This document shows, piece by piece, positions 885 to 59,783 of a DNA stretch of 64,000 nucleotides. The DNA lies in the IMG/VR virus record IMGVR_UViG_3300023202_000247, positions 1 through 64,000 of that record; one strand, given 5' to 3'. Below the pieces are notes generated by a model that had not been told where the DNA came from, did no database searches, and worked only from the letters and a program-made list of their open reading frames with translations. Position numbers and translations under genes: made by a program. Numbering within the stretch: the stretch's first letter is position 1; each line of letters opens with the position of its first letter. Source of the stretch: a virus.

Positions 885-2440
885 GCCGAATTAAAAAAAA
901 GATTGGAACCCTTAGGGTGCGGCCCCGTATTCAGTACAAGCCCGGCGAAAAACCGGGCCCCGGTTCTCTGAAAACCTAACGCATGTTCTGTCGCCGCACT
1001 TTCTAGGCTAGTCCCGGAAAGTTTCGCAGAAACCCGGAGTTACCGGCCTCTGCGGAAAAAAGTCAGCCTTACCGGTTGACGCGGCGGAACGCGTGATTAG
1101 GTTCCTAATGGGTCGCAACGGCCCCCCGGCGAAAGCCGGGATGATCATTGAAAACAGAATACCTCGCAAGCGGTAAGCCCCGGCTTGCGAGTAGAATCCT
1201 AAAAGGTTCCCATTAGTTTGGGAGCGCAGATTAGGACGTAATTCACGGGGCGGCCGATCTTCGGCCTAATATGTTACCGCGCTCTAAGTGTGCCGTAAGG
1301 GCGCTTATCGCGGTAATGGTATCACACACCGGATCTATAGGGTCAATCAAGTTAACTTCGAACCCTCTGAACCGGCGGATCTTGTCACGCTGTGAAGTGT
1401 TGCACGGTCCCGGGGCGAAAGCTTTGGTTAAGTGGTATCGCAGTTTTACCGGGTAACCGGGACCACATAGTTTTCGTGACTATAGCCAACCTGCATTAGT
1501 AGGGAAACTGTAATGGTTAATAAGTGGCCTAACTCTGTGAATTACGCTAGTCCCGAATTGGGATAAAAGCTCTAATGTCTAGCTCGAGACACTAGTACTT
1601 AGGCGGCTCCTAGTCGTCCGAACCGTCAATCAGGTTTTACCTCGAACGGTTGTGCGCACCTGTCTACGCCGATACCAAGGTTTGACAGTGTTGCAAGGGT
1701 AATGCTCGGTTTTCTACCACTAGCTAGGATGTTACCAGCGGGCCATAGGCCCGACGCGTCACACGCAAACCGTGCGTATGCGCTTTGCTGACCCGTAAAA
1801 CGGCGGTTTTGAGCGCTAAGCCTTCCCCAAAGGCTAAAGTCGGTGGTAACAGTGGAATTCTAGTGGCACAATCGCTGCGAAGCTGCTTAATGTAGTTTTT
1901 GCGGATTGTCACTGATTAACGTGTATGAGTCTGTTAGAGTTTAAAAACGGCCCTACGTATATCGTAGCGGGGCAATCCCGGACAATTGTTCGTTAATTCC
2001 CATGCATAATGCGTGGTCGAGTTATCGATTCTAATCTGTAATGTTTCAATCGGGGAGAATATCTGAGGCAATGTAGGCAGATACACAAGTCTAGCAGCGG
2101 TTATCCGTTGCGTTACGGGCTTTCCCGGCCGTCTTTTTGACGATAACGTAACAATTACGTTATTCGCCGGATCGCGTTGTGATACGCGAGACGTCTATAA
2201 AGCTACGTTGGGCATAATCGTAGGTCATAATGACTTTGCGGTTATTGTAGTTTTTGCCAAAGGTGTTTTAGTAGATTGAAACGGGGGAAGCGGCAAGCGA
2301 GATAGATGAACCGTAGTTTTTACGGGTGTAGTGTGTCTCGCTTGCTTGCTACCTTGGCGGTTTGATGCAGTAATTGTAGGAATCGCGAAGATAGCAAACG
2401 TGGGTGCGGGTGGTTTTCGGAAAGAAAGTTATGCGGAAAA
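885..2440 (+). ncRNA. giant structured non-coding RNA region (class unknown)
   Basis: About 1.5 kb lacks a believable ORF in a genome where genes otherwise overlap, yet it is packed with perfect stems. Examples: 1022-1030/1049-1057, 1062-1068/1074-1080, 1125-1130/1135-1140 with a GAAA loop, 1163-1171/1183-1191, 1105-1112 with 1209-1216 closing a multibranch around the previous two, 1252-1257/1261-1266, 1274-1281/1309-1316, 1406-1413/1457-1464, 1739-1744/1748-1753, 1953-1957/1963-1967, 2143-2151/2155-2163, and 2293-2302/2336-2345 enclosing 2311-2315/2321-2325. GNRA loops recur. This is the look of the giant ornate phage RNAs (GOLLD and ROOL families), but I cannot assign a family. The strand is inferred from gene direction. 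Boundaries are approximate, and it may be more than one RNA. Confidence 0.65.
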
Positions 2441-3168: not shown

Positions 3169-3403
3169 GAAGGTGCGCGGCTAGTCAAACGAGCCAGTAG
3201 GCTTTTCCCGTCAAGCCAAGTCCCGCCGGGTCTCGGCTCGGGCCGTAAGGTCCGGGCCGAGATCCGTTCAGAGTCCGCGCCGAGCCAATAGGCTGGCGCG
3301 GCCGTGAGCACGCATTGATGCGTGCGAGCGAAGGTTTCAATCCATTCTGGCTAATAATGCCAGGGTTCAAAGCCCGTGTAACAATCACGGGAGGAGTGTA
3401 TCT
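3169..3403 (+). promoter_or_regulatory. five-hairpin structured leader, copy 1
   Basis: Five consecutive stems precede the start codon. These are a 17-bp stem 3228-3244/3249-3265 with GTAA loop (three G-U pairs), 3276-3286/3291-3300 with one bulge, a palindrome 3308-3325, 3347-3351/3359-3363 with a 7-nt loop, and 3373-3378/3386-3391 with a 7-nt loop. The last stem abuts the Shine-Dalgarno AGGAG. It looks like a cis-regulatory RNA (riboswitch- or thermosensor-like) or a small structured RNA. The ligand is unknown. Confidence 0.65.
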
Positions 3404-3454
3404 ATGACCAACCAGCAAGCAATCCGTCACATGGGCTCGCCCGATCTCGAGGTA
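3169..3454. repeat. 286-bp duplicated cassette head, copy 1
   Basis: As read, identical to 4824-5109. It spans a structured leader plus the first 17 codons of the following gene (MTNQQAIRHMGSPDLEV). After this point the two genes diverge completely, so the duplication joins a common 5' module to different bodies. Confidence 0.95.
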
Positions 3455-3754
3455 ATCGAACATGCCCTCGAAGTGCACGGCTCATACGCCGAGGCCGTAG
3501 CCGCGCTGGAGTCGTGGCACCACGGGATCCTGGTGTCCGCGGGTGGCGGGTCGTACAGAGCGATCTACTGCTGCGCGCCGGAGGATATGCCGAGCGTGCT
3601 GAGCCATGCCGATTCCCGTCGGCACGCTCCGATGCTCGTGACGATCGCCCACCGAGGAGCCGCGCCACAGCACTGGGCCCAGGATCCGTCCGGCCATCGT
3701 CGCGGCGGTAGCAGGGTGATCCGGGTGCAGCGCCCGGCCGAGGTGCAGTCATGA
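3404..3754 (+). CDS. hypothetical protein with shared MTNQQAIRHMG head
   Basis: 116 residues behind AGGAG. Residues 1-17 are identical to those of the protein at 5059; the rest is unrelated. The C-terminal RPAEVQS is encoded by the recurring junction motif that also forms the start region of the next gene (ATGA overlap). No domain is recognised. Arg/His content of the tail is high and GC is high, consistent with recent acquisition. Confidence 0.6.
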   Translation: MTNQQAIRHMGSPDLEVIEHALEVHGSYAEAVAALESWHHGILVSAGGGSYRAIYCCAPEDMPSVLSHADSRRHAPMLVTIAHRGAAPQHWAQDPSGHRRGGSRVIRVQRPAEVQS

Positions 3755-3759
3755 GCGCC
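3738..3759 (+). repeat. recurrent gene-junction motif (copy 1)
   Basis: The motif ccgaggtgcagtcatgag plus cgcc encodes the end of one gene (EVQS stop) and supplies the ribosome-binding site (GAGGTG) and start (ATGAGCGCC) of the next. It recurs at 4465-4486, 5487-5506 (GTG form) and 30231-30253, each time between different genes. Confidence 0.7.
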
Positions 3760-3927
3760 GACACCGCGATCGTAGTCACGCGCCACCTGGCGCTGGTAGA
3801 GTACCTGCGTGAGCAGGGCCTCATCGACGAGGACACCGACGTGGTGGCCCACGTCACCGATCCGGAGCAGATTCGGGGGCTGCACGTGATAGGGCCCGTC
3901 CCACTGCACCTCGCGGCGGATCAATAG
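3751..3927 (+). CDS. csx16: Csx16-like protein, short (N-terminal half)
   Basis: 58 residues. It contains IVVTRHLALVEYLREQG at the N-terminus and HVIGPVPLHLAAD near the C-terminus. These correspond to the VTRHpGAieW...G and hVIGtLPvhLAA signatures of the Csx16 (VVA1548) family. That family is associated with type III CRISPR and has been described as a cyclic-oligoadenylate ring nuclease. Family members are normally about 90-110 residues; this one stops right after the LAA motif, so it is either a minimal form or truncated. Role (inference): defusing type III CRISPR second messengers. It is translationally coupled to the previous gene by ATGA. Decayed copies lie at 5462 and 6018. Confidence 0.6.
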   Translation: MSADTAIVVTRHLALVEYLREQGLIDEDTDVVAHVTDPEQIRGLHVIGPVPLHLAADQ

Positions 3928-4585: not shown

Positions 4586-4825
4586 ATGTACGCAGTCATC
4601 CGCAACGCCACCCGCTACACCGGGACCCAAACATTCGCCGGCCACGTCGAGAGCCGGCACGACTCGCTCGAGGATGCGCTCCGCGCGGAGGCTCGCTCAC
4701 AGCGAGCCTGCACGCGCGCGAACGGCCCCCACACCTGGCTCGATCTGAGGGTCATCGAGATCGAGTGGGACGGCGGCGAGGCCGCCCGGGGCGAATCCCG
4801 GAGTAGCGTCGACCTCCTCGACTGA
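4586..4825 (+). CDS. hypothetical 79-residue protein
   Basis: It has a clear ribosome-binding site (AAAGGAG) 8 nt before the ATG. The 18 bp upstream, gcaccggctgactcaatc, recur at 40985-41002, so its leader has been copied elsewhere. The pattern MYAVIRNATRYTGTQTF then a Glu/Arg-rich middle resembles small phage orphan proteins. No family is recognised. Confidence 0.7.
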   Translation: MYAVIRNATRYTGTQTFAGHVESRHDSLEDALRAEARSQRACTRANGPHTWLDLRVIEIEWDGGEAARGESRSSVDLLD

Positions 4826-5058
4826 AGGTGCGCGGCTAGTCAAACGAGCCAGTAGGCTTTTCCCGTCAAGCCAAGTCCCGCCGGGTCTCGGCTCGGGCCG
4901 TAAGGTCCGGGCCGAGATCCGTTCAGAGTCCGCGCCGAGCCAATAGGCTGGCGCGGCCGTGAGCACGCATTGATGCGTGCGAGCGAAGGTTTCAATCCAT
5001 TCTGGCTAATAATGCCAGGGTTCAAAGCCCGTGTAACAATCACGGGAGGAGTGTATCT
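4824..5058 (+). promoter_or_regulatory. five-hairpin structured leader, copy 2
   Basis: All five stems described for 3169-3403 are present unchanged, ending at the AGGAG of the next gene. Retention of an identical 235-nt leader in front of an unrelated body suggests the leader itself is the functional or mobile unit. Confidence 0.65.
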
Positions 5059-5109
5059 ATGACCAACCAGCAAGCAATCCGTCACATGGGCTCGCCCGAT
5101 CTCGAGGTA
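4824..5109. repeat. 286-bp duplicated cassette head, copy 2
   Basis: Second copy of the leader plus 17-codon head found at 3169-3454, offset by 1,655 bp. Confidence 0.95.
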
Positions 5110-5721: not shown

Positions 5722-6021
5722 GATGCAATGTTGGATTACGATGACGGCGAGCGTTGTTGGCGCGTGTCGGCGGACCTGCTCGATGATATCGAGGCCGAAG
5801 TCGCCGAGCGCATCGCCGAGGCTGTGCGCACTCTGGCCGAGCCGCTGCAAGCAACCGAGTCCAGCGATGGGGAGTGGTACGACGTTGCCACCGTGAATGC
5901 GTGCGCCGCGTGCGGTGCCCCCACGCGCTACATGGGCTGGCTCCACGGCTACGTGCAGCCGCTCTGCCTGCGGGGCTGCCCCGTGCAGGGCTGTCGCCCG
6001 CCCACCATCGAGGAATCATGA
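5686..6021 (+). CDS. MKRFRLDPDTGF-head protein with zinc-ribbon tail (body B)
   Basis: 111 residues. The head is shared with 4240. The middle is acidic (DDIEAEVAERIAEAVRTLAE, probably helical). The C-terminus holds NACAACGAP and later CLRGCPVQGC, four to five cysteines that could bind zinc. It overlaps the next start by ATGA. Function unknown. Confidence 0.65.
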   Translation: MKRFRLDPDTGFDAMLDYDDGERCWRVSADLLDDIEAEVAERIAEAVRTLAEPLQATESSDGEWYDVATVNACAACGAPTRYMGWLHGYVQPLCLRGCPVQGCRPPTIEES

Positions 6022-6155
6022 AAACAATAGTAGTAACGCGCCACCCGGCGCTAGTGGAGTACATTCACGAGATCGGCCTAGCCGGTCCGGACACTAAGGT
6101 TATTCCGCATGCACAGGCTGCGGAGCGCGGCGCAACCACCATCTATTGGGCATAA
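6018..6155 (+). pseudogene. degenerate Csx16-like copy
   Basis: 45 residues beginning MKTIVVTRHPALVEYIHEIG, clearly related to the Csx16-like protein at 3751 (VTRHxALVEYxxExGL). The second half (HAQAAERGATTIYWA) lacks the HVIGxxPxxLAA motif. It is a frame-shortened paralogue, possibly non-functional or a diverged short product. Confidence 0.5.
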
Positions 6156-7756: not shown

Positions 7757-8527
7757 ATGAAAGAAAACATCAAGATCAGCAGTGACGCGGGTTGGGGCGA
7801 TCTGGAGATTGGCATCAACGTCTACAGTATCAAACAGTTGACACACTGTGCTAACTCTCTCGAGCATGCTGCTTGGAAGATTCGCCAGCGAATCGACAAT
7901 ATCTCGAAGGGAAACAAGAAGCTGGACCCATACATCTACGCGGAGATTCGCAAAGAGTGTGGCGGTACGGTGTTTCACCGACGTTCAGGAAACAAATTCT
8001 ATTACGAAAACCTGGACACAAAGACCTACATCGCCACACGAGTGCGTGCGAGCGCGTCGCTCGCTGACGAATCCGACGAATATATTTTGCAGCAAGTGGA
8101 AAACGCGATGTACCGCCTGAAAAAGCAGCGCCGAATTCTCGACGAAGAAACGGCCGCGATGCGTAGGGAAGGTATTGACGTTTCGTCACTTAAAAAAATC
8201 GCGATGCTCGAATTCAACAAAGCGGGGTTTTTCCAGAATCCCGAGGATGTTGACAAACTGGTGGACGAGTACCTTTCGACGCCACTTCGAGACATGCACG
8301 TTATCGTGGCGGAAGCAGTGGAAACCCTGCGTGAACGTGGCGAGCTGTATAAAATGTCCAGTGTCTCTAAGGTTTGCAAGTACCGACCCGCCGTCGTCGT
8401 CGTCGGCGAAGACTACGCCGTTGCCAAGATCGCAATCATCAAAGAAGTCCGCCGGATCGCAAACTGTGATTTGCGTACGGCCAAGGATGCAACCGAGCGT
8501 TACATCACAGAAACGAAACTAGGTTAA
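7757..8527 (+). CDS. protein with ribosomal L7/L12 C-terminal-like domain
   Basis: 256 residues behind AAGGAGAAAAC. Residues 1-215 are unassigned and largely helical. The C-terminal 35 residues, KIAIIKEVRRIANCDLRTAKDATE, match the hallmark helix-turn of the L7/L12 C-terminal domain (K-I-x-V-I-K-x-V-R...L-x-x-A-K). That domain binds translation factors in ribosomes, and stand-alone copies occur in other bacterial and phage proteins. A ribosome- or factor-binding role is inference. Confidence 0.65.
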   Translation: MKENIKISSDAGWGDLEIGINVYSIKQLTHCANSLEHAAWKIRQRIDNISKGNKKLDPYIYAEIRKECGGTVFHRRSGNKFYYENLDTKTYIATRVRASASLADESDEYILQQVENAMYRLKKQRRILDEETAAMRREGIDVSSLKKIAMLEFNKAGFFQNPEDVDKLVDEYLSTPLRDMHVIVAEAVETLRERGELYKMSSVSKVCKYRPAVVVVGEDYAVAKIAIIKEVRRIANCDLRTAKDATERYITETKLG

Positions 8528-26647: not shown

Positions 26648-27354
26648 GCGATAGAAACAAGCGTATCGTTGAATCGATGCAAGAGATGTTGTCCAACCAT
26701 GTGCTTATACGTGAGCATGTGTGGAATGATGACAAGCAGGCAAGCTGGGTGCTGGCTCGTGAGGGTCCGAGCGAACCCATCGAGGTAATTGCTGGCGTTG
26801 GAAATACCATCCTGATTCATGGCAACTGGCCGTTGATTCGGCTATGCTGTGAGGGTGGCAGCTGCTTCGAACGGCTCATGTGTGTAGCACATGCACGAGC
26901 CGATAAGCTCATGACGTATGCATCGTTGGGTGGTACCGAGTATGATGCTTACAATGCGAGCGAAGCAGCTGAAAAGCTCATGGAACTACGCGGTGATTAC
27001 AACGCTGATCATCAGTATGATCTTGGCAAGTTGATGGATGAAGCTATCAATCATGTTGAGATTGAAACGTCATTGTACGATTACCTACATCATAACAACT
27101 ACAGCTTCGAGCACGATACTTTTCGAGTAGTTCATGATAATCTGATTCAAGGTCAGGTAATCCTGAATCACTTGGTCAAGATATTGATTCGTCATCGTGA
27201 AGATGGTCCAGCTATTGAACATGCAGATGGATATAAATCTTGGTGGATAAATGGTACCAAACTGACAGAAGAAGAGTTTAACAATCGTTACTCATCTTGT
27301 ACCAGCAAGATTGTAGAGATTGACGGAAAACGTTACAAACTAGAAGAGGTTTGA
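26644..27354 (+). CDS. hypothetical protein ending in a MORN-like unit
   Basis: 236 residues, ATGA-coupled. The first 170 are a unique helical domain with His/Asn-rich parts. The end carries one MORN-like unit (HREDGPAIEHADGYKSWW) and the LTEEEFNN...IVEIDGKRYKLEEV tail shared by all the repeat proteins that follow. It is a fusion of an unrelated domain to the family's C-terminus. Confidence 0.75.
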   Translation: MSDRNKRIVESMQEMLSNHVLIREHVWNDDKQASWVLAREGPSEPIEVIAGVGNTILIHGNWPLIRLCCEGGSCFERLMCVAHARADKLMTYASLGGTEYDAYNASEAAEKLMELRGDYNADHQYDLGKLMDEAINHVEIETSLYDYLHHNNYSFEHDTFRVVHDNLIQGQVILNHLVKILIRHREDGPAIEHADGYKSWWINGTKLTEEEFNNRYSSCTSKIVEIDGKRYKLEEV

Positions 27355-27357
27355 AAA

Positions 27358-27864
27358 ATGGAAAAACTTCGAGTAGAGATTAATGATTGTGGTGACAAAA
27401 GGTATTACAAGTGGAATACGTATGAACTGCATAATCCATATGGTCCAGCAATTGAATTTGCATATGGATCTAAATCTTGGTATCTAAACGGTAAACTTCA
27501 TCGTGAAGATGGTCCAGCAATTGAATGGACAGATGGACATAAAGAGTGGTGGATAAACGGTAAAGTTCATCGTGAGGATGGTCCAGCAATTGAACATGTA
27601 GATGGAGCTAAAGAGTGGTGGATAAACGGTAAACGTCACCGAGAAGATGGCCCAGCTGTTGAATACGCAAATGGATCTAAATTTTGGTATGTAAACAGTA
27701 AACGTCATCGTGAAGATGGTCCAGCAATTGAATGGGCAGATGGACATAAAGAGTGGTATCTAAACGGTGTCGAATTGACAGAAAAAGAGTTCAACAATCG
27801 TCACTCTTGCGCTGGTAAAGTTGTAGAGATTGACGGAAAACGTTACAAGCTAGAAGAGGTTTGA
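27358..27864 (+). CDS. MORN-like repeat protein (5 units)
   Basis: 168 residues starting 3 nt after the previous stop. Head MEKLRVEINDCGDKRYYKW, then five units of about 23 residues following HREDGPAIEWxDGxKEWW-xNGK, then the LTEKEFNN tail. The repeat resembles MORN-type beta-hairpin repeats common in giant viruses and some jumbo phages. The function of these is unknown; recognition surfaces or decoys are possibilities. Confidence 0.8.
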   Translation: MEKLRVEINDCGDKRYYKWNTYELHNPYGPAIEFAYGSKSWYLNGKLHREDGPAIEWTDGHKEWWINGKVHREDGPAIEHVDGAKEWWINGKRHREDGPAVEYANGSKFWYVNSKRHREDGPAIEWADGHKEWYLNGVELTEKEFNNRHSCAGKVVEIDGKRYKLEEV

Positions 27865-27867
27865 AAA

Positions 27868-28236
27868 ATGGAAAAGCTTCGAGTAGAGATTAAAGATTGT
27901 GGTACCAAGAGATACTACAAGTGGGATACGGATGAACTGCATAATCCGTATGGTCCAGCTGTTGAATATGCAGATGGAGATAAAGTTTGGTATCTAAACG
28001 GTAAACGTCATCGTGAAGATGGTCCAGCTGTTGAAGATGCAGATGGAGATAAATCTTGGTGGATAAACGGTAAACGTCACCGAGAAGATGGTCCAGCAAT
28101 TGAATATGCAGATGGAGATAAAGAATGGTGGGTAAACGGTGTCGAATTGACAGAAAAAGAGTTTCACAATCGTCACTCTTGTACCAGCAAGATTGTAGAG
28201 ATTGATGGAAAACGTTACAAACTAGAAGAGGTTTGA
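27868..28236 (+). CDS. MORN-like repeat protein (3 units)
   Basis: 122 residues; same head and tail as its neighbours, with three repeat units. The gap to the previous stop is 3 nt and the leader (gaggtttgaaaa) is repeated, so the genes arose by unequal tandem duplication. Confidence 0.8.
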   Translation: MEKLRVEIKDCGTKRYYKWDTDELHNPYGPAVEYADGDKVWYLNGKRHREDGPAVEDADGDKSWWINGKRHREDGPAIEYADGDKEWWVNGVELTEKEFHNRHSCTSKIVEIDGKRYKLEEV

Positions 28237-28239
28237 AAA

Positions 28240-28677
28240 ATGGAAAAACTTCGAGTAGAGATTGACCATCATGGTAACAATAGATACTACAAGTGGGATA
28301 CGGATGAACTGCATAATCCATATGGTCCAGCTGTTGAATATGCAGATGGAGATAAAGTTTGGTATCTAAACGGTAAACGTCATCGTGAAGCTGGTCCAGC
28401 TGTTGAATGGGAAGATGGAGATAAAGAGTGGTGGATAAATGGTAAACGTCACCGAGAAAATGGTCCAGCAATTGAACATGTAGATGGATCTAAATTTTGG
28501 TATATAAACAATAAACTTCATCGTGAAGATGGTCCAGCAATTGAATATGCAGATGGAGATAAAGAATGGTGGGTAAACGGTGTCGAATTGACAGAAAAAG
28601 AGTTTCACAATCGTCACTCTTATGCTGGCAAAGTTGTAGAGATTGACGGAAAACGTTACAAACTAGAAGAGGTTTGA
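28240..28677 (+). CDS. MORN-like repeat protein (4 units)
   Basis: 145 residues, four units. Differs from the neighbouring copies by repeat number and by substitutions at the x positions of the unit. Same tail. Confidence 0.8.
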   Translation: MEKLRVEIDHHGNNRYYKWDTDELHNPYGPAVEYADGDKVWYLNGKRHREAGPAVEWEDGDKEWWINGKRHRENGPAIEHVDGSKFWYINNKLHREDGPAIEYADGDKEWWVNGVELTEKEFHNRHSYAGKVVEIDGKRYKLEEV

Positions 28678-28680
28678 AAT

Positions 28681-28980
28681 ATGGAAAAGCTTCGAGTAGA
28701 GATTAATGATTGTGGTGACAAGAGGTATTACAAGTGGGATACGGATGAGTATCATAATCCATATGGTCCTGCTATTGAACGTGCAAATGGAACTAAATGT
28801 TGGTATGTAAACGATAAGCGTCATCGTGAAGATGGCCCTGCTATTGAATTTGCAAATGGACATAAAGAGTGGTATCTAAACGGTGTCGAATTGACAGAAA
28901 AAGAGTTCAACAATCGTCACTATTGCGCTGGTAAAGTTGTAGAGATTGACGGAAAACGCTATAAACTAGAAGAGGTTTGA
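28681..28980 (+). CDS. MORN-like repeat protein (2 units)
   Basis: 99 residues, two units between the conserved head and tail. Smallest member and the last of cluster 1. Confidence 0.8.
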   Translation: MEKLRVEINDCGDKRYYKWDTDEYHNPYGPAIERANGTKCWYVNDKRHREDGPAIEFANGHKEWYLNGVELTEKEFNNRHYCAGKVVEIDGKRYKLEEV

Positions 28981-29726: not shown

Positions 29727-30248
29727 ATGAGTGATATCGAATATGTGAGCTGGTATCGTGAGGGAGAGCATGGCTGCATCGTTGCTGTGCTGACGGGCAT
29801 GCCGGAGCAGAATGTCCGTGTGGGCATCGGGGACACGTGCCTCGAGGCATATGAGGCGCTCCAGGGCACCGCGATCCAGTGCACGGGTCGTGACTGCGGT
29901 GAGGCAGCCGCGCTCGAGTGGGCAGTCGGTGCGGGCTGGTGCGAGTCGGGACTTGATGAGTACGAGCCGGACCCGGACGAATTGACCGTGGGCGACGACG
30001 ACGACGATGATGACACGATTGCCGCGACCATCCACGAGCACGGCAACGGCCTGGTAGACGTGGGAGACCACGTCGCCGGCAACGACGGCGAGCTGTACGA
30101 GGTGGTCGAGACTGGCGGGATCCATTGTAGCCCGAGCGGCAGCGGCGGTGGCAACTACATGCATGGCCGTGTACGGCTCGCCGATTGGGATGATTTGACG
30201 GAAGAAGAGGCGGAATACGTGACGTGCTCAGCCGAGGTGCAGTCATGA
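29727..30248 (+). CDS. acidic GC-rich hypothetical protein
   Basis: 173 residues. The ATG after TGGAGGATAGGGAG is preferred to an upstream ATG at 29673, because the same TGGAGGATA leader precedes the cassette genes at 4240 and 5686. Asp-rich centre (DDDDDDDTIAATIHEHGNG), Gly-rich tail, ending AEVQS like the cassette gene at 3404. GC content is far above its neighbours: an island with the same origin as the 2.6-6.4 kb block. Confidence 0.65.
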   Translation: MSDIEYVSWYREGEHGCIVAVLTGMPEQNVRVGIGDTCLEAYEALQGTAIQCTGRDCGEAAALEWAVGAGWCESGLDEYEPDPDELTVGDDDDDDDTIAATIHEHGNGLVDVGDHVAGNDGELYEVVETGGIHCSPSGSGGGNYMHGRVRLADWDDLTEEEAEYVTCSAEVQS

Positions 30249-34956: not shown

Positions 34957-35265
34957 ATGAATAGGCTCAAAGAAGACTCCTACAAAGATGCAGCTGCTCT
35001 CATTCGTATGTACAAAAAGTACGATGATGAACGGTTCTTGACCCAAGCAGCTTTTGTGCTGAGTACCACAAACGAATACGGTGTTGAGTTGTCTACGGTG
35101 ATTGCCATGTCGGAGCTGGATGCTGTCAAGGTTAATCATCAAAACCTGATGAAGTTGCACGAGTTCAAGGCTGATGGCCAAAAGGATCCTGTGCCGCTCA
35201 AATGGTGGGTATCAAACTTGTGTGAACTTGACAATCTGTTAAATCATCGAAACTATAATGCCTGA
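34957..35265 (+). CDS. hypothetical 102-residue protein
   Basis: Behind AGGAAAAG. Helical (DAAALIRMYKKYDDERFLTQ). Overlaps the PARG-like gene by 8 nt, so probably cotranslated with it. Confidence 0.7.
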   Translation: MNRLKEDSYKDAAALIRMYKKYDDERFLTQAAFVLSTTNEYGVELSTVIAMSELDAVKVNHQNLMKLHEFKADGQKDPVPLKWWVSNLCELDNLLNHRNYNA

Positions 35266-36517
35266 AAGATTTTTCAATATATTCGAGTACGAATCTTCCA
35301 GTTTAGATGATAACTGTATCATTTATCATGACGTAACGTTTATAAATGACGTTACACAGATCAAAGCTGGAACGAAATTTAGTCAGTGTGCTTTTCAAGT
35401 TGCATCTGGCAGACTAGTAGTTAGTGACGGTCGCACGGTAAATCTCGAGTACTATCAAGAGTTTCTTCGAGAACGCAACCGCTGTGATAAGTGCGGCGGT
35501 CCGGTTGAGCTTCAAAGCAATCTGAAACAATCTTTTTGTATTGACTCTCTATCTAACAATCCTGGTAAAGCATATAATCGTGAATGGATGAGCATTCCAC
35601 ACTGGTGGGAGTATGAGTGGTGTCACAAATGTGAAAGTATATCGGAGAGTGACAAAAAAGAAGTTATGGTTAAGCTCAGGCAAAATTTGAAGCGCTGCAA
35701 GATCGCAGAGAATATCTTGGGCATCTGTGAACGTGGCCATTATCATACACATGGTGGACAACATGTAAAACTAGAAATCAATAAGTCTCCAGATGTAGTT
35801 GCTCATAAAGGTTTCGATTACAAGCCGTTGCTCCATACCCCTCAGTTGAGTGTAAACAACGAAACAACGCAAAACGCCATCTTTCGTTTACATGAAAAAT
35901 ACCCAGAGGCAAGTATCGTTGCGCTGAACTTTGCATCAGCTAAGCGTCCGGGTGGTGGCTTCCTCGAAGGTTCCATGGCGCAAGAGGAAGACTTGTGTTA
36001 TAGTTCAACACTATACGCATCTCTTCGCAATGCTAGTTCGTTTTACGAGATGAATGCTGAAAGCAGGCTGATTTGTGGTCATCCATATAATGCTGGACTT
36101 TACGAAAACGTACTAGCCATTAGTCGCAACGTTGCCTTTATCAAAAATAATGCATATGGAGTTTTTACCAGGCCAACATACGTAGATGTGGTTACATGTG
36201 CCGCACCGAACGCAAACGAATTCTTCAGACTCTATGAGCGTGCTGATAAAGATGGCCAATCAATTTTAGAAGAGGTGTTGGACAAGCGTATTCGTTTCAT
36301 GCTACATGAAATTGGTCCACGGTATGACATTCTCATCTTGGGAGCATGGGGCTGTGGTGTGTTTGGAAATGACCCGCACTTTGTTGCGCGACTGTTCAAA
36401 CAGAACTTGCAAATGGATTTCTGCGAGAAGGTGAAGCTTGCACACTTTCCCGTGTATGACAGGGAACCTGGCTCTAAGACATTCAACACATTTAAAAAGG
36501 TTCTACAGTATGTTTGA
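35258..36517 (+). CDS. poly(ADP-ribose) glycohydrolase, TIGR02452/DUF2263 type
   Basis: 419 residues. The N-terminal part has two CxxC knuckles (CDKC 76-79 and CHKC 122-125). The C-terminal macrodomain has ALNFASAKRPGGGFLEGS then MAQEED (222-245), giving the PARG signature GGG...QEE with catalytic Glu243/244. It also has DVVTCAAPN and ILGAWGCGVFGNDP. Microbial PARGs remove ADP-ribose from proteins or nucleic acids. In a phage this could reverse ADP-ribosylation by host defence (DarT-type or other ART toxins) or serve NAD salvage. That role is inference; the family call is firm. Confidence 0.88.
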   Translation: MPERFFNIFEYESSSLDDNCIIYHDVTFINDVTQIKAGTKFSQCAFQVASGRLVVSDGRTVNLEYYQEFLRERNRCDKCGGPVELQSNLKQSFCIDSLSNNPGKAYNREWMSIPHWWEYEWCHKCESISESDKKEVMVKLRQNLKRCKIAENILGICERGHYHTHGGQHVKLEINKSPDVVAHKGFDYKPLLHTPQLSVNNETTQNAIFRLHEKYPEASIVALNFASAKRPGGGFLEGSMAQEEDLCYSSTLYASLRNASSFYEMNAESRLICGHPYNAGLYENVLAISRNVAFIKNNAYGVFTRPTYVDVVTCAAPNANEFFRLYERADKDGQSILEEVLDKRIRFMLHEIGPRYDILILGAWGCGVFGNDPHFVARLFKQNLQMDFCEKVKLAHFPVYDREPGSKTFNTFKKVLQYV

Positions 36518-38573: not shown

Positions 38574-39359
38574 ATGGAAAAGTTACGAGTAGAGATTAAT
38601 TGTCGTGGTAACAAGATGTATTACAAGTGGGATACGGATGAACTGCATAATCCGTATGGTCCAGCTGTTGAATACGCAAATGGAACTAAATATTGGTATC
38701 TAAACGGTAAACATCACAGAGATGATGGCCCAGCTGTTGAATATGCAAATGGAGCTAAAGAGTGGTGGATAAACGATAAGCGTCATCGTGAGGATGGTCC
38801 AGCTGTTGAAGGTGCAAATGGACATAAAGAGTGGTATCTAAACAATAAACTTCATCGTGAAGATGGTCCAGCTGTTGAAGGTGCAAATGGACATAAAGAT
38901 TGGTATCTAAATAGTAAACGTCACCGAGAAGATGGTCCAGCTGTTGAATATGCAAATGGATATAAATCTTGGTGGATAAATGGTAAACGTCACCGAGAAG
39001 ATGGTCCAGCTATTGAATATGCAGATGGATATAAAGATTGGTATGTAAACGGCAAGCTTCATCGTGAAAATGGTCCAGCTGTTGAATTTGCAAATGGACA
39101 TAAAGAATGGTATCTAAACGGTAAACTTCATCGTAAAGATGGTCCAGCAATTGAAAATGCAAATGGACGTAAAGAGTGGTGGGTAAACGGAAAGCTTCAT
39201 CGTGAGGATGGTCCAGCTGTTGAATATGCAAATGGAGATAAATGTTGGTATGTAAATGGTACCAAACTGACAGAAGAAGAGTTCAACAGTCGTCACTCAT
39301 CTTGTACCAGCAAGATTGTTAAGATTGACGGAAAACGCTACAAGTTAGAAGAGATTTGA
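38574..39359 (+). CDS. MORN-like repeat protein (9 units)
   Basis: 261 residues: the longest member. Head MEKLRVEINCRGNKMYYKW, nine units of the HREDGPAVEYANGxKxWY pattern, tail LTEEEFNSRHSSCTSKI. Adjacent units are more alike than distant ones, a sign of repeat expansion. First gene of cluster 2. Confidence 0.8.
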   Translation: MEKLRVEINCRGNKMYYKWDTDELHNPYGPAVEYANGTKYWYLNGKHHRDDGPAVEYANGAKEWWINDKRHREDGPAVEGANGHKEWYLNNKLHREDGPAVEGANGHKDWYLNSKRHREDGPAVEYANGYKSWWINGKRHREDGPAIEYADGYKDWYVNGKLHRENGPAVEFANGHKEWYLNGKLHRKDGPAIENANGRKEWWVNGKLHREDGPAVEYANGDKCWYVNGTKLTEEEFNSRHSSCTSKIVKIDGKRYKLEEI

Positions 39360-39361
39360 AA

Positions 39362-39802
39362 ATGGAAAAGATAAGATTAGAGATTAATTGTCGTGGTGAC
39401 AAGAAGTATTACAAGTGGGATACGGATGAGTATCATAATCCATATGGTCCAGCTGTTGAATACGAAAATGGAGATAAATATTGGTATTTAAACGATAAGT
39501 GTCACCGAGAAGATGGTCCAGCTGTTGAACATGCAGATGGGCGTAAAGCTTGGTATCTAAACGGAAATCGTCACCGAGAAGATGGTCCAGCTGTTGAATA
39601 TACAAGTGGGGATAAAGAGTGGTGGGTAAATGGGGTACTTCACCGAGAAGATGGTCCGGCAATTGAAGGTGCAGATGGACGTAAATCTTGGTATGTAAAC
39701 GGTACCAAACTGACAAAAGAAGAATTCAACAGTCGTCACTCATCTTGTACCAGCAAGATTGTGGAGATTGACGGAAAACGTTACAAGCTAGAAGAAGTTT
39801 GA
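39362..39802 (+). CDS. MORN-like repeat protein (4 units)
   Basis: 146 residues. The ATG after the TTGAAA is used as in cluster 1. Four units; one carries TSGDKEWWVNGVL. Confidence 0.8.
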   Translation: MEKIRLEINCRGDKKYYKWDTDEYHNPYGPAVEYENGDKYWYLNDKCHREDGPAVEHADGRKAWYLNGNRHREDGPAVEYTSGDKEWWVNGVLHREDGPAIEGADGRKSWYVNGTKLTKEEFNSRHSSCTSKIVEIDGKRYKLEEV

Positions 39803-39804
39803 GC

Positions 39805-40314
39805 ATGGAAAAGCTAAGATTAGAGATTGACTGTGATGGTACAAAAAAGTATTACAAGTGGGATATGGATGAACTGCATAATCCATATGGTCCAGCTGTT
39901 GAATACGAAAATGGAGATAAATATTGGTATCTAAACGATAAGCTTCACCGAGAAGATGGTCCAGCTGTTGAACATGCAGATGGAAATAAATCTTGGTATC
40001 TAAACGGTAAACTTCATCGTGAGGGTGGTCCAGCTGTTGAAAATGCAAATGGAGATAAAGAGTGGTGGGTAAACGTAAAGCTTCATCGTGAGGATGGTCC
40101 AGCAGTTGAACATGTAGATGGATCTAAATTTTGGTATGTAAACAACAAGCTTCACCGAGATGATGGTCCAGCTGTTGAATATGCAAATGGAACTAAATGT
40201 TGGTATGTAAACGGTACCAAACTGACAAAAGAAGAATTCAACAGTCGTCACTCATCTTGTACCAGCAAGATTGTGGAGATTGACGGAAAACGTTACAAGC
40301 TAGAAGAGATTTGA
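39805..40314 (+). CDS. MORN-like repeat protein (5 units)
   Basis: 169 residues, five units; head reads MEKLRLEIDCDGTKKYYKW. Same tail as cluster 1 proteins, showing the two clusters are one family. Confidence 0.8.
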   Translation: MEKLRLEIDCDGTKKYYKWDMDELHNPYGPAVEYENGDKYWYLNDKLHREDGPAVEHADGNKSWYLNGKLHREGGPAVENANGDKEWWVNVKLHREDGPAVEHVDGSKFWYVNNKLHRDDGPAVEYANGTKCWYVNGTKLTKEEFNSRHSSCTSKIVEIDGKRYKLEEI

Positions 40315-40316
40315 AA

Positions 40317-40685
40317 ATGGAAAAGCTAAGATTAGAGATTAATTGTCGTGGTGACAAGAAGTATTACAAGTGGGATACGTGTGAACTGCATAATCCATAT
40401 GGTCCAGCAATTGAATTTGCTGGAGATAAATATTGGTATCTAAACGATAAGTGTCATCGAAAAGATGGTCCAGCAATTGAATTTGTAAATGGAACCAAAT
40501 CTTGGTGGATAAACAATAAACTTCATCGGGAAGATGGTCCAGCAATTGAATGGGCAAATGGATCTAAATATTGGTATGTAAACGGTGTCGAATTGACAGA
40601 GGCAGAGTTCAACAATCGTCACTCATCTTGTGCTGGTAAAGTTGTAGAAATTGACGGAAAACGTTACAAACTAGAAGAGATTTGA
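40317..40685 (+). CDS. MORN-like repeat protein (3 units)
   Basis: 122 residues, three units; the first unit has lost one residue (EFAGDKYWY). Tail intact. Confidence 0.8.
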   Translation: MEKLRLEINCRGDKKYYKWDTCELHNPYGPAIEFAGDKYWYLNDKCHRKDGPAIEFVNGTKSWWINNKLHREDGPAIEWANGSKYWYVNGVELTEAEFNNRHSSCAGKVVEIDGKRYKLEEI

Positions 40686-40687
40686 AA

Positions 40688-41254
40688 ATGGAAAAGCTAA
40701 GATTAGAGATTAACCATCATGGTGACAAGAGGTATTACAAGTGGGATACGGATGAACTGCATAATCCGTATGGTCCATCTGTTGAATACAAAAATGGATC
40801 TAAATATTGGTATGTAAACGGCAAGCTTCATCGTGAAAATGGTCCAGCTATTGAATTTGCAAGTGGGCGTAAAGATTGGTATGTAAACGGCAAGCTTCAT
40901 CGTGAAAATAGTCCAGCTATTGAATTTGCAAATGGACATAAAGAATGGTATGTAAACGGTAAACTTCATCGTGAAGATGGTCCAGCACCGGCTGACTCAA
41001 TCACGAGCTGGAACATTCGGGAAGATGATGGTTCGAATCCATCACGGCCGGTCATGCACAAATTGCATAAATTGTTAATATCATTGTGGTTTTTGATGCT
41101 CGTACTCATATGTGTGGGTGACCATGTGTATGAGTATCACGAGTGTAAAAGTATCGAGCAGCGTAGTAAGTTCTCCGTGATAAACGGATGTGAAGTAAAT
41201 GTGGGTGGAACGTGGGTTCCACGGCAAGCGTGGGGTGGTGATAAAAATGAATGA
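40688..41254 (+). CDS. chimeric MORN-like protein with membrane tail
   Basis: 188 residues. Three full units and the start of a fourth break off at EDGPAPAD. The rest is foreign: ITSWNIREDDGSNPSRPV, then a membrane segment (LLISLWFLMLVLICVGDHVY) and a short outside domain with two Cys. The join coincides with the 18 bp shared with 4549-4566 and a T-arm-like motif, pointing to an illegitimate recombination. Confidence 0.65.
   Translation: MEKLRLEINHHGDKRYYKWDTDELHNPYGPSVEYKNGSKYWYVNGKLHRENGPAIEFASGRKDWYVNGKLHRENSPAIEFANGHKEWYVNGKLHREDGPAPADSITSWNIREDDGSNPSRPVMHKLHKLLISLWFLMLVLICVGDHVYEYHECKSIEQRSKFSVINGCEVNVGGTWVPRQAWGGDKNE
40985..41002. repeat. 18-bp segment shared with 4549-4566
   Basis: gcaccggctgactcaatc is present in the leader of the gene at 4586 and at the breakpoint in the chimeric MORN-like gene. 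Confidence 0.7.
41027..41043 (+). other. tRNA T-arm-like hairpin
   Basis: GATGG TTCGAAT CCATC has the exact geometry of a tRNA T arm. Flanks ACCGGCT (40987-40993) and GGCCGGT (41046-41052) could pair as an acceptor stem, but the interval is too short and lacks an anticodon arm. A tRNA fossil or an att-like site is possible; not a functional tRNA. Confidence 0.35.
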
Positions 41255-55497: not shown

Positions 55498-55741
55498 TTT
55501 GATTGTTACATATGAGTCGACACGTGCTCTTGGTCTTCCATGGAATCCATTGGCAGCCAGACGTGCACAAATGCAAGTCTGCGATGCTGTGGATAGTATG
55601 CGAAAGTATCAAAGCTTGCTCAATTCTAACGAAGAATTCGTAAAAGTTTGGGCAGTTCAAAAAGAACTTATTGATCGATACGTAGTTGAACTCCAACTAA
55701 TCAAAGATCCAAAGGTAGAGTTGAAAAATGAAAAGTACTAA
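55469..55741 (+). CDS. hypothetical protein between ligase and Ku
   Basis: 90 residues, overlapping both flanking genes (29 and 14 nt). Helical: PKHARSLIVTYESTRALGLP, then FVKVWAVQKELIDRYVVELQ. Position suggests an accessory to end-joining, but no family is recognised. Confidence 0.65.
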   Translation: MTKIPKHARSLIVTYESTRALGLPWNPLAARRAQMQVCDAVDSMRKYQSLLNSNEEFVKVWAVQKELIDRYVVELQLIKDPKVELKNEKY

Positions 55742-56597
55742 GAAGAGTGGTGCTCCGCGTGCAACTGGTAGTGCGGTCATTTCGTTCGGAATGGTTTCCA
55801 TTCCCGTCAAGCTGTATACTTCTACGAAAGATGAGAGTGTTCGTTTTAACATGATCAACCCTGCAACGCACAATCGTTGCAAGCAGAAGATTGTGGATGC
55901 GGTGACCGAGGAAGAGGTTAATCGCAACGAAACTCTCAAAGGTTTCGAGTATCAGAAAGATAACATCGTTACCTTCACCAAAGAAGAATTGGAAAAGCTC
56001 TCGGCATCTCAAGACAAGATGGTTGAGATTACCGAGTTCGTCAACAGCGATGACATCGATCCTGTTTACTTCTCCAAGAGTTACTATCTTGGTGCAGACA
56101 AGGGTGGAGATAAGCCTTACGCATTGCTGACCGAGGTAATGCGACGCACTGGTCGCGTAGCTATTGGTCGCTGGTATACTCGTGGCCAGGGACGATTGGT
56201 TCTGCTTGCACCATACGGTGAAGGATTGATTCTTCACCAGCTATGGTATGCTAATGAGGTTCGAGGCTGTGAGCACATTGCTCCAGAAGCTACGGTTTCT
56301 GAACAAGAAATTGCTCTTGCTGAGAAGCTTGTGGCCACGCTTGCCAGTGATGAGTTCGATGCAACCAAGTATCGTGACGAGTATGGTGACCGTGTGCGTG
56401 AGAGTGCGGAGTTGAAGGCTGCTGGTGGTGAGATTGCAACCCCGCAGGTCGAGAACAAAACCAATGTTACCGACCTGTTTGCTGCTCTCAACGCTAGTCT
56501 CGATAAGGTTGAGACCAAGGAAACGAAGGCAACTAAGAAAAAGGCTGCAAAGAAGACCGCACGTAAGCGCTCAACGAAAAAGAAGGCTTCGTCATAA
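55728..56597 (+). CDS. ku: Ku DNA end-binding protein
   Basis: 289 residues. AVISFGMVSIPVKLYTSTKD at the start, YFSKSYYLGADKGGDKPYAL, RVAIGRWYTRGQGRLVLLAP and a basic Lys/Arg/Ala tail (KKKAAKKTARKRSTKKK) define a bacterial-type Ku homodimer ring with DNA-binding extension. With the ligase it would give the phage its own non-homologous end-joining, for genome circularisation or repair of cuts by host nucleases. Confidence 0.92.
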   Translation: MKSTKKSGAPRATGSAVISFGMVSIPVKLYTSTKDESVRFNMINPATHNRCKQKIVDAVTEEEVNRNETLKGFEYQKDNIVTFTKEELEKLSASQDKMVEITEFVNSDDIDPVYFSKSYYLGADKGGDKPYALLTEVMRRTGRVAIGRWYTRGQGRLVLLAPYGEGLILHQLWYANEVRGCEHIAPEATVSEQEIALAEKLVATLASDEFDATKYRDEYGDRVRESAELKAAGGEIATPQVENKTNVTDLFAALNASLDKVETKETKATKKKAAKKTARKRSTKKKASS

Positions 56598-58582: not shown

Positions 58583-58611
58583 CATCCCGCATGCATAATG
58601 CATGCGGGATG
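58583..58611. terminator. 14-bp palindromic hairpin
   Basis: CATCCCGCATGCAT / ATGCATGCGGGATG separated by one base, 27 nt after the regulator stop. Likely terminator or operator. The first ATG of the next frame (58602) lies inside it, which argues against that start. Confidence 0.6.
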
Positions 58612-58637
58612 CTCGCGTTTATACGTTGGTACATTTT

Positions 58638-59783
58638 ATGTATCAACATATGAGCATGAGCGTGTTCACGTCCAAAAACCCAATTGAAAATATCGAAACA
58701 ATATTTTGTGAGAAAGGAGCGTATGAATACCCATTGACCAAAATCATTTTGGACAGGTACTCAAAAGCAAATGTTATCGACGTTGATTCTCACAATAACA
58801 TACCAGATGTTTATGACGACCCAGATAACGTCAAATATTGGAACAAGATAAAAGCTCATACACTAGTGCTTGGCATCAAGAAAAGTGTTAGTGCTAGGCC
58901 CAATTGCAGAAGTACTGATTGGATTGCGCCAAGCTTCTCAAATGGATGTGCGCTGGCCTGTTCGTATTGCTATGTTGTGCGACGAAAAGGATATGCAAAC
59001 CCAATTACATTGTTTGTAAACGTCGAACGCATCAAGAAATATTTGCGCGGCCATAGTAAGCGCCGAGGTCCAAAGGTTTTGACACCGGAAAATGCTCAAA
59101 CGGACACGATTTACTGGACATATGATATAGGCGAGAATTGTGATGTGAGCGTTGATGCTTTGCTAAGCGATACGCCTCGCGAGATTGTTCAGTTCTTTCG
59201 CGATGAGATGCCTCACGGCAAAGCCTCGTTTGCAACCAAGTATGTTAACCGTAGCATGCTTGATTATGATCCCGGAAGAAAAACGAGAATCAGATTTTCT
59301 ATGATGCCTCAAAAACCTTCCAAGGTTGTTGATGTACGCACGTCTTCGATTAAAGATCGTATTAATGCAATTAATGATTTTCACCGCGCCGGCTACGAAG
59401 TTCATTTAAACTTTTCTCCTGTCATCATCTACGACGGTTGGGAAAGGGATTACGTGGAGTTGTTTGAGCAAATCAATGACTGCACAAACAATGCTGTAAA
59501 GAAACAGCTCAAGTGTGAGGTCATTTTTCTTACCCATAATGAAAAGCTTCATGAGTTAAACATGAAGTGGCATCCCAAAGCTGAGCGTGAGTACCTGTAT
59601 AGGTATAAAAATGTTGATGGTAAGAATAAGTTTGGGCTCCCCGTGTTACAACAACGTAAGTTGAGCCAAAACGGTATGTGGAATTTGAGATATAAAAATA
59701 ATCACAAGAAAGCTGGTGTACAGACTTTTCGTGATTTGCTCGATTCTCATATGGGCTACTGTAACATACGTTACATTTTTTAG
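58638..59783 (+). CDS. spore-photoproduct-lyase-like radical SAM protein
   Basis: About 381 residues; a longer frame starts inside a hairpin, and ATGs at 58650 and 58656 are also possible. GCALACSYCYVVRRKGY holds the CxxxCxxC Fe-S ligands after WIAPSFSN. TIYWTYDIGENCDVSVDALL and GYEVHLNFSPVIIYDGWERD are typical of the spore photoproduct lyase (SPL) family. SPL reverses UV thymine photoproducts by radical chemistry; phage members may repair DNA or act on another substrate. The last residues (GYCNIRYIF) follow family practice. Confidence 0.8.
   Translation: MYQHMSMSVFTSKNPIENIETIFCEKGAYEYPLTKIILDRYSKANVIDVDSHNNIPDVYDDPDNVKYWNKIKAHTLVLGIKKSVSARPNCRSTDWIAPSFSNGCALACSYCYVVRRKGYANPITLFVNVERIKKYLRGHSKRRGPKVLTPENAQTDTIYWTYDIGENCDVSVDALLSDTPREIVQFFRDEMPHGKASFATKYVNRSMLDYDPGRKTRIRFSMMPQKPSKVVDVRTSSIKDRINAINDFHRAGYEVHLNFSPVIIYDGWERDYVELFEQINDCTNNAVKKQLKCEVIFLTHNEKLHELNMKWHPKAEREYLYRYKNVDGKNKFGLPVLQQRKLSQNGMWNLRYKNNHKKAGVQTFRDLLDSHMGYCNIRYIF

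Follow-up and report, generated by a model that had tools for sequence, protein, structure and literature searches.

The sequence analysed here (the window) covers the first 64 kb of IMG/VR virus record IMGVR_UViG_3300023202_000247, which comprises 321,461 bases and, judging from its genes, is a jumbo tailed phage. The record encodes TerL (phrog_675), a DNA polymerase that is split, a PhuZ-tubulin-like protein, rIIA/rIIB, Ku, a DnaB-like helicase and a NAD-dependent ligase. Its TerL shares at most 65% identity with IMG/VR relatives. A core of the record at ~137-284 kb is collinear with these TerL relatives, and the first 130 kb, including the region described below, are largely private with respect to them.

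The contig end is occupied by an 80-bp tandem array (positions 1-631, found with TRF and a pattern search of the record) that contains 16 copies of the 15-bp iteron-like sequence AAATGTGYCGTATCC, all in one orientation; the rest of the 321-kb record contains no further copy of this sequence. The array is followed on the + strand by a candidate structured non-coding RNA, delimited to 898-2507 by its pairing ends and supported by its fold statistics, its helices and flanks that show no excess structure. Just past it, the sequence contains a TATAAT (2520-2525, +) that might serve as a promoter for downstream genes, although it has no good -35 box and was left unscored by our promoter scan. The first downstream ORF (2586-2759, +) encodes 57 amino acids and belongs to no family.

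Other features of the record were observed. An identical 286-nt duplicate (3169-3454 and 4824-5109) is strongly structured (z -6.6), and each copy precedes an ORF, the two ORFs being alike only in their first 17 residues (MTNQQAIRHMGSPDLEV); the element looks like a reused 5′ cassette. Two small proteins (3751-3927 and 6018-6155) match Cas_VVA1548 (PF09652, Csx16-like), one of them below the cut-off, and may have a counter-CRISPR role. The DNA polymerase (L007:5715-11715) is encoded by two ORFs with a break at profile position 793/794, between which sits a 661-aa homing (HNH) endonuclease ORF. PARG-like, Ku and spore photoproduct lyase-like proteins are encoded at 35258-36517, 55728-56597 and 58602-59783, and coding-like arrays of a 69-bp repeat, probably repeat proteins, are found at 27190-28884 and 38656-40986.

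Coding potential, fold and extent of the candidate RNA

A preliminary description of this DNA had proposed a gene-free, densely structured RNA of around 1.5 kb at 885-2440. The absence of genes is borne out by our analysis: the longest open run in 885-2520 is 86 codons, compared with a shuffle median of 106, no period-3 or codon periodicity signal was detected in this interval, and it contains no plausible gene. Translation with either the standard code or recoded stops was considered and rejected, open runs being no longer than in shuffles.

The minimum free energy of 885-2520 on the + strand is -654.7 kcal/mol, against approximately -535 ± 12 kcal/mol for dinucleotide shuffles. The corresponding z-scores were -11.1 (24 shuffles), -9.8 (16), -12.3 (60) and -10.2 (24), and the best of 60 shuffles was still 100 kcal/mol less stable. 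As controls, four coding segments of equal length gave z-scores of -0.8 to -3.9. In the identical test E. coli 16S rRNA scored -3.0, the first 1,636 nt of 23S -2.4 and the orf-less lncRNA region of phage ICP1 -2.5. The predicted fold contains 40 confident helices of at least 5 bp and 45 hairpins, compared with 30.4 ± 3.7 hairpins in 60 shuffles. The dense structure proposed earlier is therefore real at the level of fold statistics, and the several GNRA loops mentioned with it are five tetraloops (1131, 1295, 1392, 1417 and 1453), where shuffles contain 0.32 ± 0.65 and not one of the 60 had as many as five. Long-range helices, taken by number alone, were no more frequent than in shuffles and were hence not used as evidence.

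The two ends of the region base-pair with each other (898-904 with 2501-2507, and 912-917 with 2487-2492), which sets the unit at approximately 898-2507. The location given in the preliminary description was thus right, and the unit is slightly longer than it had stated. The flanks fold ordinarily, with z-scores of -0.1 for 640-884 and -1.2 for 2521-2585, and the predicted structure breaks off abruptly at either edge. Our scans recognised no sigma-70 promoter upstream of the RNA on the + strand and no intrinsic terminator at its 3′ end; a jumbo phage may use other expression signals.

The predicted architecture is that of a closed, multidomain molecule. On the 5′ side (898-926) the closing helices comprise 898-904, 912-917 and 923-926, with pair probabilities of 0.66-0.75; on the 3′ side (2484-2507) the outer ones comprise 2487-2492 and 2501-2507. 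Inside them, a 5′ multibranch domain (971-1105) is closed by 973-979/1097-1103 and 984-994/1081-1091 (pair probability 0.91-0.96), and is followed by the GNRA hairpin CCCGGC-GAAA-GCCGGG (1125-1140, probability 1.00). A large central domain (1226-2039) is closed by the 11-bp long-range helix 1226-1236/2029-2039 (0.89) and begins with a five-branch subdomain (1237-1546), closed by the 14-bp helix 1237-1250/1533-1546 (0.97), that holds four of the five GNRA loops. The inner central part (1650-2028) is poorly determined, with entropy above 1 bit across ~1605-2020. The 3′ domain (2043-2282) is closed by 2043-2051/2274-2282 and 2056-2064/2261-2269 (0.98-0.99), and the 3′ tail domain (2292-2470) consists of three adjacent hairpins: a 13-bp one (2292-2304/2334-2346), 2347-2396, and a 14-bp one (2404-2417/2456-2469). 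Folded alone, 2041-2510 gives a z-score of -8.7. The 16-nt motif UUAAUGUAGUUUUUGC, found at 1887, recurs at 2242 with one mismatch. One helix of the preliminary description did not withstand this analysis. The segments 1105-1112 and 1209-1216, proposed as a multibranch closure, are perfectly complementary, but forcing the helix costs +11.4 kcal/mol, because two better hairpins at 1110-1124 and 1206-1225 need the same bases.

Strand specificity and rival explanations

To separate selection on RNA from selection on DNA we relied on G-U pairs. The rationale is that, if the sequence had been selected as DNA (as an origin or as cruciforms), both strands should be stabilised alike and G-U (G-T) pairs should bring no gain. 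When G-U pairs were forbidden, the excess stability was indeed alike on the two strands (-80 kcal/mol on + and -76 kcal/mol on -). When they were allowed, it was -120 kcal/mol on + and -62 kcal/mol on -. Furthermore, G-U pairs make up 13.5% of confident pairs on the + strand versus 3.9% on the - strand. This comparison, made on one sequence with 24 shuffles per condition, is the best evidence in our analysis for a + strand RNA; it is a strong but not conclusive argument that the selected molecule is this RNA rather than a DNA structure. Where homologues are lacking, such a strand-specific test offers a simple argument for a transcribed structure.

The main rival to a trans-acting RNA is a role in replication, in which the array would bind an initiator, the adjacent transcript would prime or regulate replication and the structure would act in cis. 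Transcripts are known to prime or regulate replication in the case of plasmid RNA II and of phage R-loop origins. Here, 16 repeats of 15 bp in one orientation, unique in the record, lie directly upstream of the RNA, and the first kb is the only place where both GC and AT skew are strongly reversed, the rest of the record being almost uniformly positive. On the other hand, the skew flip extends over the repeat array and its flank, lies for the most part within the array, and could simply reflect their base composition. Known primer RNAs are far shorter and have far fewer domains, and the + strand-specific gain from G-U pairs favours selection on RNA over DNA; we regard an origin role as unlikely. 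A very long cis-acting leader, controlling attenuation or translation of an operon that starts at 2586, would fit the small downstream genes on the same strand and the scan, which found no terminator between them and the RNA. It is less likely because the paired ends close the unit ahead of the TATAAT at 2520, the structure ending at ~2507; moreover, no riboswitch or leader family matches and a leader of 1.6 kb would be extraordinary.

The position of the region at a contig end beside repeats, the GC content of the neighbouring 3-6 kb (~66%, against ~40% elsewhere) and the recovery of the RNA from this one record alone could also point to an artefact, the contig end being chimeric or the region being decayed and its fold an extreme produced by chance. 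Nevertheless, a 27-bp element present at 3736 and 4463 is found again at 30,231, ahead of an unrelated ORF, and the GC content shows no abrupt step: it is 66-69% at 3-6 kb, drifts down gradually across tens of kb and has reached ~40% by kb 80 of the record. Because of this shared repeat and this gradual change we consider the left end part of the phage and favour, on sequence grounds, its being a single molecule with the rest of the contig. The 100 kcal/mol that separate the region from the best of 60 shuffles speak against a chance fold, and an artefact of either kind appears quite improbable. Finally, a large ribozyme, a derivative of a group I or II intron or a mobile-element remnant would also be a large multidomain RNA with GNRA loops, and homing-endonuclease genes exist elsewhere in the record. 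However, even at E≤10 the intron and ribozyme models of Rfam give no match, the flanks contain no recognised interrupted gene, no intron-encoded protein was found and the region is present in single copy, which makes this origin very improbable.

Search for relatives

The preliminary description had been unable to match the region to GOLLD or ROOL, and this suspicion is sustained by the covariance models of both and by the whole of Rfam. No family matched at its gathering score, including rRNA, group I and II introns and OLE; at E≤10 the RNA region matched only two microRNA models, with 17-20 bits, far under their cut-offs. The GOLLD model (RF02032) found nothing at 885-2520, and matched no positive-control genome either; its best score in the record, at another location, was 9.7 bits for a gathering score of 150 bits. 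The ROOL model (RF03087, gathering score 99.1 bits) gave no match at E≤1 or in permissive scans, and no positive control matched at E≤1.

Sequence searches were likewise negative. No homologue was found by blastn in INPHARED or PLSDB, and the best match among 36 TerL-related IMG/VR records was 21 nt long (E 0.008); it lies in a region of overlapping ORFs and was judged to be due to chance. None of 24 degenerate back-translated seeds (three frames of the RNA and 3′ domain) led to a confirmed homologue in IMG/VR, nor did six seeds (one frame) in GTDB contigs. Single-sequence covariance models of the 5′ multibranch domain (R1, 971-1105) and of the 3′ tail domain (R2, 2292-2470) matched only the source among 22 records, and the neighbouring proteins at 3404-3754 and 7757-8527, as well as rIIA, recovered no relatives when used as bait. 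Among six relatives, no long ORF-poor region was comparable to the RNA. Those of genome G035 were discarded as counterparts, being a CRISPR-like repeat array and tRNA arrays. In a 392-kb TerL relative, a CRISPR-like repeat array was seen together with a tmRNA and over 40 tRNA genes (L115:11737-12473; L116; L120-L122). The RNA, which is single copy in its own record, is an orphan within the collections searched; near-identical records may lie outside them.

Interpretation and comparison with known large RNAs

A giant structured non-coding RNA at this locus is well supported by the fold statistics, the lack of coding signal, the enrichment in GNRA loops and the G-U stabilisation of the + strand. 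The sequence is non-coding, present once, and structured strongly and specifically on that strand. What we consider probable is that the locus produces a stable, single non-coding RNA of ~1.6 kb from the + strand, a closed multidomain molecule that would play a structural role in trans, by itself or within an RNP. In this model the + strand of the phage would be transcribed into a discrete RNA that folds, between its paired ends, into a 5′ multibranch domain followed by the large central domain and the two domains on the 3′ side, accumulates during infection and acts in trans as an RNA or RNA-protein particle, as an ‘ornate’ RNA would. Transcription, accumulation and action as a particle are suggested here by analogy with published cases (PMC12286853, PMC7567579, PMC9241854). 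Self-assembly, perhaps through the many exposed hairpin loops, could yield a homo-oligomer or cage, a step drawn purely by analogy that we hold to be rather doubtful, and the particle might protect components of the host or the phage or keep them sequestered. More tentatively, the locus may represent a new class of orphan phage RNAs, ~1.6 kb long and about twice the size of GOLLD, forming an RNA or RNP particle and possibly coupled to replication through the iteron-like array.

Recent work has shown that the large ornate RNAs GOLLD, ROOL and OLE, whose function is unknown, assemble into RNA-only complexes. The region described here combines a long non-coding sequence with extensive predicted multibranch structure, as ornate large RNAs do, and on our model it most plausibly represents an orphan, a new variant among the ornate phage RNAs, approximately twice as long as GOLLD. 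If so, ornate RNAs would arise repeatedly, this being an unrelated example of about double length in a jumbo phage, and the molecule would be a new object for cryo-EM.

GOLLD resembles it as a very large, multibranched phage or prophage RNA with many hairpins, whose function is likewise unknown (PMC12286853). Nonetheless, the solved example of GOLLD is ~830 nt long, compared with ~1,610 nt predicted here, as anticipated by the earlier remark that this region is the longer. GOLLD often lies near tRNAs, whereas the RNA described here has none nearby: the 64-kb window contains no tRNA gene, and the only one found in the record is at ~87.2 kb. ROOL is also a large ornate phage or prophage RNA, abundant and forming an RNA-only octamer cage (PMC12286853); its Rfam model has 574 positions, and it differs in both length and predicted domains. 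Phage ICP1 makes an abundant ncRNA of ~800 nt from an orf-less region between gp139 and gp140 (PMC7567579), but that region is far less structured (z -2.5), half as long and without sequence similarity to ours. Phage K has the long ncRNAs lnc001 and lnc002, which were compared by their authors with GOLLD and ROOL (PMC9241854), with the difference that they were identified by transcription beside tRNA genes; blastn against phages finds no similarity.
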